A stretch of DNA of 64,000 nt, taken from NCBI RefSeq assembly GCF_004364285.1, contig NZ_SOBE01000001.1, forward strand, positions 124,001-188,000, written 5' to 3'. Made by a program: the position numbers and the translations under genes. Each line of letters opens with the position of its first letter. The stretch's first letter is position 1. This DNA comes from Frigoribacterium sp. PhB116. Lineage in GTDB: Bacteria; Actinomycetota; Actinomycetes; Actinomycetales; Microbacteriaceae. Below, one piece after another: positions 41,216 to 47,603 of the stretch. The notes beneath the pieces are model-generated. The model was not told the origin of the DNA and made no database searches. It worked only from the letters and a program-made list of their open reading frames with translations.

Positions 41216-41272
41216 CCTCCCCTCGGCCGGGTCGGACCCGCCGAGGAGGCGCGGGCGAGCAGGATGGACCGC

Positions 41273-41680
41273 ATGAGCACCCGACGCACCCGCCACGCCC
41301 GCACCGCCTCCGTCCGCCGCACGGCGCTCCTCCTCGCGGCCGCCTGCGGCGTCTCCGGCGTCCTGCACCTCGTGCGCCCGAGCGCCTACGACGCCGTCGT
41401 GCCGCGCAGCATGCCCGGCCCGGCCCGCCTGTGGACCACGAGCTCGGGCGTCGCGGAGGTCGTCGTCGCCGGCGCCCTGCTCTCGACGACGACGCGACGG
41501 GCGGGCGGCGCCCTCGCGGCCGCGCTCTTCGTCGCCGTGTTCCCGGCGAACGTGTCGATGGCCCTGCGGGCGCTCCGGAGCAGCCGCGCCGGGACGGCCC
41601 GACGGGTCGTCACCGTCGTCCGCCTGCCGCTCCAGGTGCCGCTCGTGGCGAGCGCGCTCGCCGTGCGCCGGGCCTCCTAA
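41273..41680 (+). CDS. DoxX-family small membrane protein, second copy
   Basis: A 135-residue homologue of the protein at 13912-14361. Helices are TALLLAAACGVSGVLHLVRP, SGVAEVVVAGALLS, GALAAALFVAVFPANVSMAL and LPLQVPLVASALAV. The shared FxAxFPxNxS motif between helices 3 and 4 links the two copies. The ATG at 41273 follows CAGGAT plus 7 nt (leaderless); ATG 41264 is an alternative adding three residues. It stands alone between the LysR gene and the 5-oxoprolinase operon. Confidence 0.7.
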   Translation: MSTRRTRHARTASVRRTALLLAAACGVSGVLHLVRPSAYDAVVPRSMPGPARLWTTSSGVAEVVVAGALLSTTTRRAGGALAAALFVAVFPANVSMALRALRSSRAGTARRVVTVVRLPLQVPLVASALAVRRAS

Positions 41681-41834: not shown

Positions 41835-42683
41835 ATGACCACGATCGACCTCAACGCCGACCTCGGCGAGGGCTTCGGCCGATGGACGCTCGGCGACGAC
41901 GACGCCCTGCTCGACGTCGTGACGAGCGCGAACGTCGCCTGCGGGTTCCACGCGGGCGACCCGGCCGGCCTGCTGCGCGTCGTCGACGCGGCCCACCGTC
42001 GCGGGGCCGTCGTCGGGGCGCACGTCTCGTACCGCGACCTCGTCGGTTTCGGCCGCCGCTACGTCGAGGCGTCGCACGACGAGCTCGTCGCAGACGTCGT
42101 CTGGCAGATCGGCGCGCTGACGGGCCTCTCCCGGGCTGTCGGCGGGGCCGTCCGCTACGTCAAACCGCACGGCGCGCTCTACTCGGTCGTCGCGGACGCC
42201 GACGGCCGGGGCGCCGTCCACGCCGGCGCCGTGATCGAGGGCATCCTGCGGATCGACCCGGCCCTGCCCGTCGTCGGGCTCGCCGGCTCCGCGTTCCTCC
42301 GTCGTGCCGGGCAGGAGGGCCTCCACGTCGTCGCCGAGGCCTTCGCCGACCGCGCCTACGACGCGACCGGCGCGCTCGTGCCCCGCAGCCGACCCGGGGC
42401 CGTGCTGCACGACGCCGGCGAGGTCCGCGACCGCGTCCTCCAGCTGGTCGAGACCGGCACGGTGCGCGCCGTCGACGGCACCGTCGTCGAGCTGCGGGCC
42501 GACACGGTCTGCGTGCACGGCGACAGCCCGGACGCCGTCGCGATCGCCGTCGGGGTGCGCAGCGCCCTCGAGGAGGCAGGGGTCGTCCTCCGCCCGTTCG
42601 TGACGGTCCCGCAGGCGGCCGGCACCCCCGCGACGCCCTCGTTGTCGTCGACGCCGCTCGACCCCGGGACGACCACCCGGTGA
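41835..42683 (+). CDS. pxpA: 5-oxoprolinase subunit A (LamB/YcsF family)
   Basis: A 282-residue LamB/YcsF-family protein. Diagnostic motifs are TIDLNADLGEGFGRWTLGDD at the N-terminus, SANVACGFHAGDP, GAHVSYRDLVGFGRR, VRYVKPHGALY and VCVHGDSPDAV. PxpA works with PxpB and PxpC to hydrolyse 5-oxoproline to glutamate with ATP. It opens an operon in which the next gene encodes PxpB-PxpC as one chain, coupled by GTGA. GGGGAGG precedes the ATG. The C-terminal 25 residues are Thr/Pro/Ser-rich. Confidence 0.92.
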   Translation: MTTIDLNADLGEGFGRWTLGDDDALLDVVTSANVACGFHAGDPAGLLRVVDAAHRRGAVVGAHVSYRDLVGFGRRYVEASHDELVADVVWQIGALTGLSRAVGGAVRYVKPHGALYSVVADADGRGAVHAGAVIEGILRIDPALPVVGLAGSAFLRRAGQEGLHVVAEAFADRAYDATGALVPRSRPGAVLHDAGEVRDRVLQLVETGTVRAVDGTVVELRADTVCVHGDSPDAVAIAVGVRSALEEAGVVLRPFVTVPQAAGTPATPSLSSTPLDPGTTTR

Positions 42684-44464
42684 CCGGCCACGAGGTCGAT
42701 CTCGGGGCCGCGCTCCGGCACCTCCGGGTGCTGCCGCTCGGCACGGACGGCGTGCTGATCGAGACCGACGGACTCGACGAGTCGCTCGCCCTCTTCGGCG
42801 CCCTGCTCGCCCAGCCCGTGGCTGGCATCCTCGACGTCGTGCCGGCCGCACGGAGCGTCGCGGTGCGGTTCCTGCCCACGCTGCTGCCCATCGCCTCCCT
42901 GATGAGCGTGCTCCGGTCGCTGCCGACGTCGCGCGACGCGGCGACGCAGGGCCGGCTCGTGGAGATCCCCGTCGAGTACGACGGCGAGGACCTGGCCGAG
43001 GTCGCCCGGCTGAGCGGGCTCAGCATCGACGAGGTCGTCGACCGGCACGCCGGTGCCACCTACACCGTCGCCTTCACGGGCTTCGCGCCGGGCTTCGCGT
43101 ACCTCACGGGCGGCGACCCGTCCCTCGCCGTCCCTCGGCGCGCGACGCCCCGCACCTCGGTGCCCGCCGGGGCGGTCGCCATGGCGGGGGAGTTCACCGG
43201 GGTCTACCCGCGCGAGAGCCCCGGCGGGTGGCAGCTGCTCGGGCACACCGACGTCGCCCTCTGGGACCTCGCCGAGCGCGTCCCGGCGCTGCTGCAGCCG
43301 GGGATGCGCGTCCGCTTCGTCGACGTCACGGAGCGCAGAGCCAGTCCCGAGGAGGCGGCCTACCCGGAGCACGGGACCGTCGCGTCCCCGCACGGGCGCG
43401 CTCACGAGCACGGCCACGAGCACGAGCACGAGCACCAGTCCGCCGGACCCGGACCCGGACCCGGACCCGCTGCCCGCCCCCGCCCCCGCCCCGACCGTGC
43501 GCTCGTCGTCACGACCCCGGGCCCGTTCAGCATCCTGGAGGACCTCGGGCGGCCCGGCCGCTCCGGCCTCGGCGTCTCGCGCTCGGGCGCCATGGACCAC
43601 CGTGCGCTCCGCGAGGCCAACCGCCTGGTCGGCGCGGCGACGGGCTCGGCCGCGCTCGAGCTGGCCTACGGCGGGCTGGAGGCGACGGCGCGCGGAGACC
43701 TCGTGCTCGCCGTGGCGGGCGCGCCCGTCCCGTTGACGGTGCACGGCGCGAGCGGCGTCCGCCACGCGGTCCCCGGGGCCGCGTTCGCGGTCGACGACGG
43801 CGAGGTGCTCGTCGTGGGGGCGCCTCCTCGGGGCGTCTACTCGTACCTCGCCGTCCGCGGCGGCTGGGAGGCCGAGAGCGTGCTCGACAGCGCGTCGGGC
43901 GACGTCCTGGCGCGCATCGGCCCCGGCCGGCTGGCCGCCGGCGACGAGCTCGGCGTCGGACGTGCCTGGTCCGAGAGCGTCGCGGCCTCGGCCCACGACG
44001 CCCAGCGCTCGGTCTCCGCCCCGGACGAGGTCACCCTGCTCGACGTCGTGCTCGGACCGCGCGACGACTGGTTCACCCCCGAGGCGCTCGAGCGCCTCAC
44101 GGGCCAACGGTTCACGGTCACGGCGCAGTCGAACCGGATCGGGCTCCGCCTGGCGGGCGAGCACCCCCTCGAGCGTGCGGTCGAGCACGAGCTGCCGAGC
44201 GAGGCGACCGTCTCGGGTGCCCTGCAGGTCCCGCCCGACGGCCAGCCCGTGCTCTTCATGGCCGACCACCCCGTCACGGGCGGCTACCCGGTGGTCGCGT
44301 GCGTCGTCGGAGACCAGCTCGACCGTGCCGCGCAGGTGCCCGTCGGGGCGAGCGTGCGGTTCCGCGTCGTCCCCGGGCCCGACCTCGGCGCGGGTCGACG
44401 CGGCGGCCGGCGCGACGCACGGGTCGACGAGCGTGCCGCAGACGAACGGGGCGTCGAGCAGTGA
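42680..44464 (+). CDS. pxpBC: 5-oxoprolinase subunits B and C fused in one polypeptide
   Basis: A 594-residue fusion. Residues about 1-230 are PxpB/KipI-like (TYTVAFTGFAPGFAYLTG, VPRRATPRTSVPAGAVAMAG, ESPGGWQLLG). Residues about 273-594 are PxpC/KipA-like (LVVTTPGPFSILEDLGRPGR, SGAMDHRALREANRLVG, SNRIGLRLAGEHPL, GYPVVACV). The domains are joined by a His/Glu- then Gly/Pro/Arg-rich linker (about 233-272). With PxpA it forms the ATP-dependent 5-oxoprolinase. GTGA overlaps occur at both ends. Urea-amidolyase subunits share these folds, but pairing with PxpA settles the assignment. Confidence 0.9.
   Translation: MTGHEVDLGAALRHLRVLPLGTDGVLIETDGLDESLALFGALLAQPVAGILDVVPAARSVAVRFLPTLLPIASLMSVLRSLPTSRDAATQGRLVEIPVEYDGEDLAEVARLSGLSIDEVVDRHAGATYTVAFTGFAPGFAYLTGGDPSLAVPRRATPRTSVPAGAVAMAGEFTGVYPRESPGGWQLLGHTDVALWDLAERVPALLQPGMRVRFVDVTERRASPEEAAYPEHGTVASPHGRAHEHGHEHEHEHQSAGPGPGPGPAARPRPRPDRALVVTTPGPFSILEDLGRPGRSGLGVSRSGAMDHRALREANRLVGAATGSAALELAYGGLEATARGDLVLAVAGAPVPLTVHGASGVRHAVPGAAFAVDDGEVLVVGAPPRGVYSYLAVRGGWEAESVLDSASGDVLARIGPGRLAAGDELGVGRAWSESVAASAHDAQRSVSAPDEVTLLDVVLGPRDDWFTPEALERLTGQRFTVTAQSNRIGLRLAGEHPLERAVEHELPSEATVSGALQVPPDGQPVLFMADHPVTGGYPVVACVVGDQLDRAAQVPVGASVRFRVVPGPDLGAGRRGGRRDARVDERAADERGVEQ
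43380..43500 (+). repeat. Low-complexity His/Glu and Gly/Pro linker region
   Basis: Inside pxpBC: alternating cac-gag codons encode HEHGHEHEHEH, followed by CCGGAC repeated four times (from 43443) and a Pro/Arg run. Likely a flexible, possibly metal-binding linker produced by repeat expansion at the PxpB-PxpC joint. Confidence 0.75.
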
Positions 44465-46077
44465 GGAAGCTCCTGATCGCCGAGCGGGGGCTCGTGGCGG
44501 TGCGCGTCGCGAGGGCCGCCGCCGACCTCGACCTGCCCTCCGTCGCGGTGTTCGCCCCCGACGACGTCGACGCCCTGCACGTGCGTGCCGCCGATGAGGC
44601 CTGGGCCCTCGACGAGCTGCCCGGCACCGACGCGTACCGCGACATGCAGGCGCTGCTCGACGTCGCCGATCGGAGCGGCGCCGACGCGGTGCACCCCGGC
44701 TGCGGCCCGCTCAGCGAGAACGCCGAGTTCGCGCGTCGGGTGCTCGCCGCAGGCCTCACCTGGGTCGGGCCCGACCCCGAGACGATGGAGCTGCTCGGCG
44801 ACAAGGTCTCGGCGCGGGCCCTCGCGGACTCCGTCGGCGCGCCCCTCGTCGTCGGCACCTCCGAGCCGATCGCCTCGGCGGACGAGGCGGTCGCGTTCGC
44901 CCAGCGGCACGGGCTGCCGATCGCGCTCAAGGCGGCCCACGGAGGCGGCGGGCTGGGGCTGCGGATCGCTCGCCGGCTCGACGAGGTCGCCGACCTGCTC
45001 GACTCCGCCGTGCGCGAGTCGGCCGCCGTCTTCGGCCGCGGAGAGGTCTTCGTCGAGCAGTACCTCGACCGGCCGCGCCACGTCGAGGCCCAGCTGCTGG
45101 GCGACGGGGAGGGACGGGTCGTGGTGGTCGGCACCCGCGAGTGCTCGGTGCAGCGCCGGCACCAGGAGCTCGTCGGCGAGGCACCGGCTCCGTACCTGAC
45201 CGACGAGCAGCTCGAAGTCGTCACCTCCACGTCCGTCGCCCTGGGCTCGGCGGTCTCGTACCGCGGCGCCGGCACCGTCGAGTTCCTCGTGTCGCGTGCA
45301 GGCCAGGTCTCGTTCCTCGAGGTGGGCACCGCCCTGCCGCTCGAGCACGTCGCCACCGAGCAGGCCACGGGCGTCGACCTGGTGCGGCAGCAGCTGCTGG
45401 TGGCGGGCGGGCTCGGGCTCGACCTCGCCGACGTGCCCGAGAGCCGTGGCCACACGATCTCGTTCCGCGTCACGGCGGAGGACGCCGGTCGCGGGTTCCT
45501 GCCGGCACCGGCCCCGGTGGCCCGCCTCGAGCTGCCGGGCGGACCGGGCGTGCGGGTCGACTCGGGCGTCGTCGTGGGCTCGGTCGTCCCGGCGGGCCGC
45601 GACCCGCTCCTCCTCACGGTCGTCGTGACGGGCCGGGACCGTGCGGCGGCCCTGAGCCGCGCACGCCGCGCCCTGGACGGCCTCGTCGTCGAGGGGCCCG
45701 CGACGACCGCGCGCTTCCACCGCCTCCTCGTCGACGACCCGGCCTTCACGGGCGTCGTCGCCGACACCGAGACGGGGACGGACGGCGGGGGAGCGGACGG
45801 CGCCGAGCCGTCCGTGCACACCCGCTGGATCGAGACCGAGTGCGAGTGGCTCGACGAGCTGGCGACCGCGACGCCGGAGGCGGCGGCCGGCCCGGGGTCC
45901 CTCCGCACGTGGGTCGTCGTCGACGGGCGTCGCGTGCCCCTCGTGCTGCCGCTCGCCGACGTCGTCGGCTCGTCCGACGGCGCGCTCGGGGCCGACGCCC
46001 TCGTCGCCGGCATCGCCGCCGCGACGATCGAGGTCGATGTGCCCGGGCAGGCCGGGCGGGGCTCTTCGGCGTCGTAA
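44461..46077 (+). CDS. Degenerate biotin-carboxylase homologue in the 5-oxoprolinase operon
   Basis: A 538-residue protein with the fold of biotin carboxylase subunits and no biotin carrier domain. ATP-site features remain: Lys115 in LLGDKV, Lys157 in IALKAAHGGGG, Glu274 and Glu287. Residues for bicarbonate and catalysis are changed: RRHQKV is RRHQEL (Lys to Glu236), and the conserved EMNTRLQVEH is EVGTALPLEH, replacing the Asn, Arg and Gln. The N-terminal NRGEIA is ERGLVA. VHTRWIETE near residue 455 recalls actinobacterial acyl-CoA carboxylase alpha chains. GTG overlaps pxpBC (GTGA). Normal carboxylase activity looks unlikely; a regulatory or new ATP-dependent role is inferred. Confidence 0.8.
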   Translation: MRKLLIAERGLVAVRVARAAADLDLPSVAVFAPDDVDALHVRAADEAWALDELPGTDAYRDMQALLDVADRSGADAVHPGCGPLSENAEFARRVLAAGLTWVGPDPETMELLGDKVSARALADSVGAPLVVGTSEPIASADEAVAFAQRHGLPIALKAAHGGGGLGLRIARRLDEVADLLDSAVRESAAVFGRGEVFVEQYLDRPRHVEAQLLGDGEGRVVVVGTRECSVQRRHQELVGEAPAPYLTDEQLEVVTSTSVALGSAVSYRGAGTVEFLVSRAGQVSFLEVGTALPLEHVATEQATGVDLVRQQLLVAGGLGLDLADVPESRGHTISFRVTAEDAGRGFLPAPAPVARLELPGGPGVRVDSGVVVGSVVPAGRDPLLLTVVVTGRDRAAALSRARRALDGLVVEGPATTARFHRLLVDDPAFTGVVADTETGTDGGGADGAEPSVHTRWIETECEWLDELATATPEAAAGPGSLRTWVVVDGRRVPLVLPLADVVGSSDGALGADALVAGIAAATIEVDVPGQAGRGSSAS

Positions 46078-46136: not shown

Positions 46137-47603
46137 ATGACCACCCCCGTGTCCACCGACTCTCGCCGCCCCGGCGTGGCCGGTGCCCTCGACCGCTACT
46201 TCGAGATCACCGGCCGCGGCTCGAGCTGGGCCCGCGAGATCCGAGGCGGCGTCGTCACCTTCGTGACGATGGCCTACATCGTGATCCTCAACCCGCTGAT
46301 CCTCGGCGGCTTCAGCGAGGACCAGGCCGCGAAGGACGTCCTCGGCGGCTGGCTGCAGAACAGCCAGGTCGGCGCGGTCACGGCTCTCACCGCCGGTGTC
46401 ATGACCATCCTCTTCGGCACCGTCGCGCGCCTCCCGTTCGCCTTCGCGGCGGGCCTCGGCATCAACTCGTTCCTGGCGGTCACGGTCGTGCAGGACGTGA
46501 CCTGGCCCGAGGCGATGGGCCTCGTCGTCATCAACGGCCTCGTCATCACGATCCTCGCCGTCACGGGTCTCCGCAGCATGATCTTCAGCGCGGTGCCCGC
46601 GGCGCTCAAGACCGCGATCACGGTCGGCATCGGCCTCTTCATCGCGTTCATCGGCCTCGTCGACTCGGGCTTCGTCCGCACGAGCGGCGCCGCGTCGCCC
46701 CCGGTGCAGCTCGGCGACGGCGGGTCGATCAGCACCCTGCCGACCATCACCTTCGTCATCGGCCTCGTCGTCATCGGCGTGCTCATGGCCCGTCGCGTCC
46801 GCGGTGCGATCTTCATCGGGATCGTCGCCTCGACGGTCATCGCGATCGTCCTGCAGGCGATCTTCCAGGTGCCCACCTCGAACGGCCAGAACCTCGACGA
46901 CTGGAACCTCAACGCGCCGGTGCTGCCGACGCAGATCGTCGCGCTGCCCGACCTGTCGCTGATCGGCGACGTCAGCCTCGGCGCCTTCGCGCGCATCGGC
47001 TGGCTGTCGGCCGTGATGCTCGTCTTCACCCTCGTCTTCACGAACTTCTTCGACGCCATGGGCACGATGACCGGACTCGCGAAGGCCGCCGACGTCGCTG
47101 CACCCGACGGCACGTTCCCCCGCCTGAAGTCGGCGCTCGTCGTCGAGGGCATCGGCGCGGTCGCCGGCGGCGCGACGAGCTCGTCGTCGAACACCGTCTT
47201 CGTCGAGTCGGCCTCCGGCATCGGCGAGGGCGCCCGCACCGGCTTCGCCTCGGTCGTCACCGGGCTGCTCTTCATCCTCGCCATGTTCTTCACGCCGCTG
47301 ACCCAGGTCGTGCCGCTCGAGGTCGCCGCCGCGGCGCTCGTCATCGTCGGCGCGCTGATGGTCTCGCAGATCAAGGACATCGACTGGACCGACTTCAGCG
47401 TCGCCCTGCCCGTGTTCCTGACGATCATCGTCATGCCGCTGACCTACTCGATCGCCAACGGCATCGGCGTCGGCTTCGTCACGTGGGTGATCGTCCGCGC
47501 GTTCTCGGGCAAGGCACGCGAGATCAGCCCCCTGCTGTGGATCGTCGCAGTCGGGTTCCTGGTCTACTTCGTCCGCGGTCCGATCGAGACCCTGATCGGC
47601 TGA
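46137..47603 (+). CDS. NCS2-family purine permease, AzgA type
   Basis: A 488-residue permease with about twelve to fourteen membrane segments. Signatures of the AzgA branch (adenine, guanine, hypoxanthine uptake by proton symport) are GGVVTFVTMAYIVILNPLIL, PFAFAAGLGINSFLAVTVV, TNFFDAMGTMTGLAKAADV and GATSSSSNTVFVESASGIGE. Helix 10 precedes a conserved VEVAAAALV-type motif (here PLEVAAAALVIVGALMV). It follows the 5-oxoprolinase operon by 59 bp and may be transcribed separately. Confidence 0.88.
   Translation: MTTPVSTDSRRPGVAGALDRYFEITGRGSSWAREIRGGVVTFVTMAYIVILNPLILGGFSEDQAAKDVLGGWLQNSQVGAVTALTAGVMTILFGTVARLPFAFAAGLGINSFLAVTVVQDVTWPEAMGLVVINGLVITILAVTGLRSMIFSAVPAALKTAITVGIGLFIAFIGLVDSGFVRTSGAASPPVQLGDGGSISTLPTITFVIGLVVIGVLMARRVRGAIFIGIVASTVIAIVLQAIFQVPTSNGQNLDDWNLNAPVLPTQIVALPDLSLIGDVSLGAFARIGWLSAVMLVFTLVFTNFFDAMGTMTGLAKAADVAAPDGTFPRLKSALVVEGIGAVAGGATSSSSNTVFVESASGIGEGARTGFASVVTGLLFILAMFFTPLTQVVPLEVAAAALVIVGALMVSQIKDIDWTDFSVALPVFLTIIVMPLTYSIANGIGVGFVTWVIVRAFSGKAREISPLLWIVAVGFLVYFVRGPIETLIG

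Follow-up and report, generated by a model that had tools for sequence, protein, structure and literature searches.

A probable pseudo-biotin-carboxylase retained with the 5-oxoprolinase operon of Frigoribacterium

The 5-oxoprolinase operon of Frigoribacterium sp. PhB116 lies within a stretch of 64,000 nucleotides (contig NZ_SOBE01000001.1, positions 124,001 to 188,000; this whole stretch is called the window below) and consists of pxpA, pxpBC and, as third gene, a degenerate biotin carboxylase (BC) of 538 amino acids without a carrier domain, the BC-like gene (44461..46077, forward strand). From Pfam matches, alignments, trees, substitution rates and a predicted fold, we consider it probable, with considerable reserve, that this gene encodes a pseudo-biotin-carboxylase, i.e., a carboxylase-dead subunit that would be retained as a partner of PxpABC. 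Judged by its sequence, efficient carboxylation of biotin by the BC-like copy is almost certainly impossible because the equivalents of N290 and R292 of the Escherichia coli enzyme are glycine and alanine in all nine Frigoribacterium copies and the biotin carrier is absent. The loss appears to be confined to the carboxylation half of this one protein of the operon, since the bicarbonate/biotin pocket is changed while the ATP-site residues are spared and nearly all conserved columns of PxpBC and PxpA are kept.

The BC-like gene runs from a GTG start codon at 44461 to a stop codon that ends at 46077, and its product matches Biotin_carb_N, CPSase_L_D2 and Biotin_carb_C; a biotin-carrier domain was not found in it by Pfam scan. 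An earlier note on the window, made from the DNA letters alone, had read a BC fold as third gene of the operon at precisely these coordinates, with a 4-bp translational overlap with pxpBC and without the carrier and its biotinyl-lysine, all of which is borne out here. The overlap (GTGA, 44461..44464, forward strand) joins the start of the BC-like gene to the stop of pxpBC and recurs as NTGA in 9/9 Frigoribacterium carriers of the operon, and the carrier domain is missing from 9/9 copies. Among the four Biotin_lipoyl matches of the genome, a simple motif scan located the biotinylation motif solely in a paralogue of the AccA3 type. Behind the BC domains, from residue 431 onward (45751..46074, forward strand), a remnant of the BC-to-carrier hairpin is left.

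Loss of the carboxylation pocket and sparing of the nucleotide site

Residues are numbered after E. coli AccC (NC_000913.3) unless they are given as window residues. In the alignment with AccC, the window protein retains K116, K159, E201, H209, Q233, H236, E276, E288, E296, R338 and D382, of which E296 is the catalytic base while R338 and D382 contact biotin, and carries the substitutions Y82C, F84P, R167L, K238E, N290G, R292A and Q294P. The retained K116, K159, E276 and E288 are window residues K115, K157, E274 and E287, and K238, N290, R292 and Q294 are window residues E236, G289, A291 and P293, in agreement with what the earlier note had listed for the ATP site and for the lost positions. 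On the DNA, these changes are seen in residues 81-83 (44701..44709), which read CGP where E. coli has YGF (Y82-F84), in the glutamate at residue 236 (45166..45168), and in residues 287-296 (45319..45348), which read EVGTALPLEH instead of the usual EVNTRLQVEH, all on the forward strand.

Most of these substitutions are common to the genus. N290G, R292A and F84P are invariant in 9/9 Frigoribacterium copies, and three further positions are changed in every copy, i.e., Y82 (to C, or to A in one copy), R167 of the glycine loop (to L, Q or V) and Q294 (to P, S or A). K238E occurs in the window genome alone; the other eight copies have lysine. Of the Glu/Gly/Ala/Pro set whose conservation across genera had been proposed as a check, Gly and Ala thus stand throughout the genus, but Glu is confined to the window, the last position varies, and the nearest homologues in other genera are intact.

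To place these changes in context, we compared the nine copies at 157 BC-domain columns that are at least 95% conserved across 74 of 76 intact BCs linked to pxp genes outside the genus (L121 and L200 were left out), of which 17 are changed in all nine. The bicarbonate/biotin pocket is changed clade-wide at 5/11 positions (hypergeometric p = 0.0025) and the ATP-site set at 0/13, a sparing that taken alone is within chance (p = 0.21); the difference between the two sets (Fisher p = 0.011) is to be read with the fact that both were drawn up in part from general background and with some of the changes already in view, with R167 in neither. The contacts assigned to K116, K159, H209, F84 and further members of the ATP set are presumed ones. 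At each of the five pocket positions changed clade-wide, the new side chain is the smaller one, with mean volume changes between -44 and -87 cubic angstroms, and of the pocket residues Y82, K238, N290, R292, Q294, E296 and R338, the window copy keeps only E296 and R338. According to the accessible part of PMC8667948, the alanine mutations N290A and R292A lower the activity of the E. coli enzyme 250-fold and 200-fold, respectively. The accessible text of PMC11077971, in which numbering is mostly one lower, identifies the residue equivalent to E296 as the base, places the counterparts of E201, Q233, E276 and E288 in contact with Mg-ADP, and assigns contacts with biotin to the counterparts of R338 and D382.

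The overall fold seems to have survived these changes. An AlphaFold2 model built from 17 sequences reached a mean predicted local distance difference test (pLDDT) score of 84.4 and a predicted template modeling (pTM) score of 0.80, with the tail predicted poorly, and Foldseek aligned it to 5mlk with a root-mean-square deviation (rmsd) of 1.6 and to 3g8c with an rmsd of 1.7 and a template modeling (TM) score of 0.95 by target length. By sequence, the best match among solved structures is mycobacterial AccA3. All 20 NCBIfam models listed for the protein stay under their cut-offs (best 431 bits), but every model listed for two intact controls, L213 and the AccA3-type L002, does so as well, and the cut-offs therefore do not discriminate. 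A kept fold, lost catalytic residues and purifying selection together give the protein the profile of a pseudoenzyme.

Purifying selection and co-occurrence in Frigoribacterium

The ratio of nonsynonymous to synonymous substitution rates (dN/dS) was calculated pairwise after Nei-Gojobori. Among the four closest genomes, the BC core ranges from 0.051 to 0.080 with a median of 0.073, PxpBC from 0.051 to 0.137 with a median of 0.100, and PxpA from 0.116 to 0.164 with a median of 0.157, and 9/9 Frigoribacterium copies of the BC-like gene are free of stop codons and frameshifts. These values show purifying selection that has acted on the BC core since the loss on the Frigoribacterium stem, and they disfavor the dying gene that the earlier note had kept in view for the case that rates showed no constraint.

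Across the 16 Frigoribacterium genomes of our genus set, pxpBC occurs in 9/16, and exactly these nine also carry the BC-like gene, i.e., it is never missing from a genome of the genus that has pxpBC. The AccA3-type paralogue is present in 16/16, and G008, a genome without the operon, has a further BC of about 40% identity. Decay of the operon as a whole was considered and rejected in view of the nearly complete set of conserved columns in the other two proteins: of 50 PxpA columns conserved across 147 of the 152 loci surveyed outside the genus, not one is lost throughout the nine copies, and the majority residue of Frigoribacterium departs from PxpBC conservation at 2/84 columns, at one of them in all nine copies.

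Ancestry among pxp-linked biotin carboxylases

Outside the genus, we sought PxpBC in samples of 398 genomes of the family and 396 of the order, of which 96 and 76 matched at the thresholds used (1e-60 and 1e-75). All but seven of the 76 matching genomes of the order were taken in, and the survey covers 152 pxp loci. A BC-like frame is found in 78/152 of them, 76 intact and two degenerate (L143 and L110). The 76 intact BCs keep NTR[LI]QVEH, GGGG[RK]G, QRRxQK and a biotinylation motif of their own; at L121, the intact BC lies ca. 1.6 kb off and is of another BC type. In the remaining 74/152 loci, a BC was not detected within a fetched stretch of up to about 13 kb, which at L205 reaches only 590 bases beyond PxpBC. 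The score filter of the first census had missed L110, which was the only gain of a looser search (E up to 0.001) of the 75 BC-less loci; the PxpBC column comparison and the switch count on the PxpBC tree treat L110 as BC-less.

The Frigoribacterium BC-like genes form a single clade (100/100, stem 0.38) in a 67-row tree, where they lie within the pxp-linked BCs and beside L213/L214 (98/88). This tree covers 50 of the 77 BC loci then known, with 25 hand-picked likely near-copies as well as L121 and L200 dropped. Because the clade nests among intact pxp-linked BCs, its ancestor was most likely an intact, carrier-bearing BC of this type, and function was lost once, on the Frigoribacterium stem. 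The earlier note had reasoned that intact motifs in close homologues would mean simple decay; the nearest homologues outside the genus are indeed intact and carrier-bearing, but the loss is ancestral to nine genomes and conserved in them. An origin of the BC-like gene as a degraded duplicate of the AccA3-type paralogue is rejected by the same tree, in which the AccA3 paralogues fall into a separate clade; an earlier tree without L213/L214, from which five rows had been dropped for want of a recognizable start, had left that origin open.

On a FastTree phylogeny of 131 PxpBC rows, presence of the BC module switches between 9 (the number forced by well-supported branches) and 15 times. No PxpBC residue distinguishes BC-linked from BC-less operons at 85% in both groups, as analyzed for the 122/152 loci in which PxpBC is one frame of sufficient length (121 without L143); some Frigoribacterium rows of this alignment keep upstream residues, which should lie outside the conserved columns. 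Because of the repeated switching and the lack of a separating PxpBC column, BC looks accessory to PxpABC chemistry. In the accessible part of PMC13274462, the pxpTABC cluster of Corynebacterium glutamicum supports growth on 5-oxoproline without a BC gene.

Degenerate and fused forms outside the genus

L143 (6631-8142), from another genus of the family, is a BC-like gene of 503 amino acids that shares the 4-bp overlap with pxpBC and lacks a carrier. It has lost K116, K159, E288, N290, R292 and E296, and its K238 is a glutamate as well; a close match to it was not found in the other eight genomes of its genus. L110 (2980-4476, minus strand) lies in a genome of 1.7 Mb that is the only one with pxpBC among five of its genus, and is a frame of 498 amino acids that also overlaps pxpBC by 4 bp and has no carrier. 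Its Biotin_carb_N and Biotin_carb_C domains are recognizable, its ATP-grasp domain is not, and of both halves of the active site only R338 and D382 remain. Either independent conversion or late decay may lie behind these two genes, and their sequences favor conversion because the frames have stayed open over ca. 500 codons despite strong divergence. For L110, a structural role is hinted at because it has lost the ATP-grasp domain and yet keeps its frame of 498 amino acids. A single origin of the Frigoribacterium clade together with L143 was rejected by the approximately unbiased (AU) test (p = 0.019), with the caveats of a long branch and of a group that was named after the first tree had been seen.

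A third locus, L105 (3907-7536, minus strand), encodes PxpB, PxpC, BC and carrier in one open frame, in an order of parts that differs from that of urea carboxylase. As a natural single fusion, it suggests that PxpBC and BC would touch each other.

Role of the BC-like protein

The course of events that we favor would begin with an intact pxp-linked fusion of BC and biotin carboxyl carrier protein (BCCP), a type that still stands beside pxpABC in many Actinomycetales. On the Frigoribacterium stem, the carrier domain and the bicarbonate/biotin pocket were lost, whereas the ATP-grasp fold and nearly the whole nucleotide/Mg site were retained, with the BC core under purifying selection ever since, and carboxylation of biotin most likely ended. 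The product would then most likely be a non-catalytic or weakly catalytic subunit docked on PxpBC via a surface inherited from the complex of BC and carboxyltransferase (CT), where it may either stabilize the 5-oxoprolinase or couple it to ATP, the latter being considered because the ATP site is kept in the Frigoribacterium copy. We infer the partner role indirectly, i.e., from the operon overlap, from inheritance as a block and from the one fusion. The earlier note had likewise proposed a non-carboxylating role, which fits the loss of efficient carboxylation and the retention together with pxpABC; the particular functions that it offered (ATP-dependent partner, regulator or different ligase) are putative.

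Several observations weigh against a retained subunit. Constraint on the BC-like gene is apparently partly relaxed, since deeper pairs have a median dN/dS of 0.332 in the BC core (PxpBC 0.239, PxpA 0.368), the AccA3 paralogue is under stronger constraint (0.026-0.059 for close pairs, reaching 0.170 for deeper pairs) and selection on the C-terminal tail is weak (0.4-1.5). The window genome has additionally lost K238. The BC module is dispensable elsewhere, as seen from its 9-15 switches and from growth with the BC-free C. glutamicum cluster in the accessible data. L143 and L110, known from one genome each, may be end-stage relics, and since L110 has no recognizable ATP-grasp domain, not all such remnants can be ATP binders.

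Some of these points would also be expected of a decaying relic, i.e., a BC gene that became useless when its carrier was lost and that is slowly vanishing like the BC module elsewhere. Intact outgroups, the repeated switching of BC presence on the PxpBC tree, the more ruined copies of L143 and L110 (each a lone case in its genus sample), the private K238E of the window and the weakly constrained tail all speak for such decay. We nonetheless judge it unlikely given that 9/9 copies are uninterrupted, that the BC core is as constrained in close pairs as PxpBC (0.05-0.08), that the gene accompanies every pxpBC of the genus, and that open frames of ca. 500 codons in the strongly diverged L143 and L110 are unexpected under long neutral decay. 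A repurposed ATP-grasp enzyme, whose emptied pocket would take a larger and less charged substrate such as a lactam to be phosphorylated or ligated for PxpABC, could explain why 5/5 clade-wide pocket changes replace a larger by a smaller side chain while the base E296, the Mg ligands E276 and E288, R338 and D382 are kept. However, phosphoryl transfer is expected to be crippled as well without N290 and R292, position 294 varies (P/S/A) unlike a tuned site, parts of the ATP site are lost in L110 and L143, and PxpABC elsewhere needs no extra kinase as far as PMC13274462 is accessible, which makes this a rather improbable function. Least of all do we expect a slow BC that would use the AccA3-type paralogue's carrier in trans, an idea that we regard as very improbable: the genome does have a biotinylation motif there and E296, R338, D382, nearly the whole ATP site and, in 8/9 copies, K238 are retained, but Y82, F84 and Q294 are lost, 76/76 intact pxp-linked BCs keep a biotinylation motif of their own, and R292A is exactly one of the E. 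coli alanine mutations that cost ca. 200- and 250-fold (accessible part of PMC8667948), with N290G at the other position.

If the pseudo-biotin-carboxylase reading is extended beyond Frigoribacterium, carrier-bearing BCs beside 5-oxoprolinase genes may repeatedly become carboxylase-dead subunits, a generalization that we advance tentatively and ourselves hold to be doubtful. The Frigoribacterium protein, with its pocket emptied and its nucleotide site kept, would then be an ATP-responsive regulator or a lactam ATP-grasp enzyme, and L143 and L110, which belong to two other genera and have their ATP sites damaged or gone, would be scaffolds.

Relation to known systems

The closest relatives are the pxp-linked BC-BCCP proteins of Actinomycetales (L213, L214), which are likewise placed after pxpA-pxpBC, are ca. 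60% identical to the window protein and form its nearest branch, but keep EVNTRLQVEH, HPGYGFL, GGGGRG and the biotinylation motif. AccA3, the alpha subunit of acyl-CoA carboxylase (PDB 5mlk, 9yx2), gives the best structure matches (5mlk by sequence; 9yx2 and 5mlk by fold) and shares the layout of BC and hairpin, but has an intact active site and a carrier, and the AccA3-type paralogue of Frigoribacterium sits in a separate clade. With E. coli AccC, the protein shares the fold, most ATP/Mg residues, E296, R338 and D382, whereas Y82, F84, R167, N290, R292 and Q294 are replaced, in the window K238 too. The pxpA and pxpBC genes of the window belong to the PxpABC families and are predicted to serve ATP-dependent hydrolysis of 5-oxoproline, unlike C. 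glutamicum pxpTABC in having a BC gene in the cluster (accessible part of PMC13274462). Urea carboxylase (BC-CT-BCCP) has a CT part homologous to PxpBC, and TIGR02712 matches both window proteins, but the window parts lie on separate proteins without a carrier, and the scores stay far under the TIGR02712 cut-off (393.8 bits against 1303.85). The accessible part of PMC3199775 describes separate genes that resemble the two ends of the CT domain of urea carboxylase. Among the matches listed from literature free of subscription, we found no description of pxp-linked pseudo-carboxylases.

The role of intact BC-carrier genes beside 5-oxoprolinase genes (76/152 loci) is unexplained in the accessible literature, and 5-oxoprolinase can work without them. 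The loci compared here form a natural series that separates the role of BC from its chemistry, with intact BC-carrier genes in 76/152 (one of them non-adjacent), no BC detected in 74/152, and dead but retained versions at L143, at L110 and in nine Frigoribacterium genomes. The contribution of BC would include structure or ATP sensing if these dead forms are still of use. In addition, R292A, which is crippling in E. coli BC, is fixed naturally in a conserved protein.

Operon and flanking genes

pxpA (41835..42683, forward strand) encodes 5-oxoprolinase subunit A of the LamB/YcsF family (282 amino acids; PF03746, 300 bits; one NCBIfam PxpA subfamily model of PRK05406.1-3 above its cut-off), and pxpBC (42680..44464, forward strand) encodes the fused subunits B and C (594 amino acids; CT_C_D, PF02682, and CT_A_B, PF02626). 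Together, they bring LamB/YcsF, CT_C_D and CT_A_B into one operon, i.e., the domains by which a prokaryotic 5-oxoprolinase is recognized. For pxpBC, TIGR00370 and TIGR00724 are narrowly above their cut-offs and the PxpC equivalog NF045499 is under its own.

The pxp cassette is flanked on the left by a gene for a small MauE/DoxX-like membrane protein (41264-41680; MauE match under the Pfam cut-off) and on the right by an NCS2-type permease gene (46137..47603, forward strand; PF00860), which is the right neighbor in 9/9 carriers. Between these two flanks, 7/7 non-carriers gave no match at 1e-4 to pxpA, pxpBC or the BC-like gene (the search covered whole genomes for pxpBC and the BC-like gene, and the site only for pxpA). 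The gap measures 121-165 bases in six of them and 848 bases in G009, where none of the three genes is matched either. A single branch (100/100) of the permease tree separates the non-carriers from the carriers.

Within PxpBC, a His/Glu-rich and Gly/Pro-rich linker joins the two halves of the window protein; in the window, L008 and L009 alike, PxpBC ends in a variable low-complexity tail ahead of its overlap with the BC-like gene.

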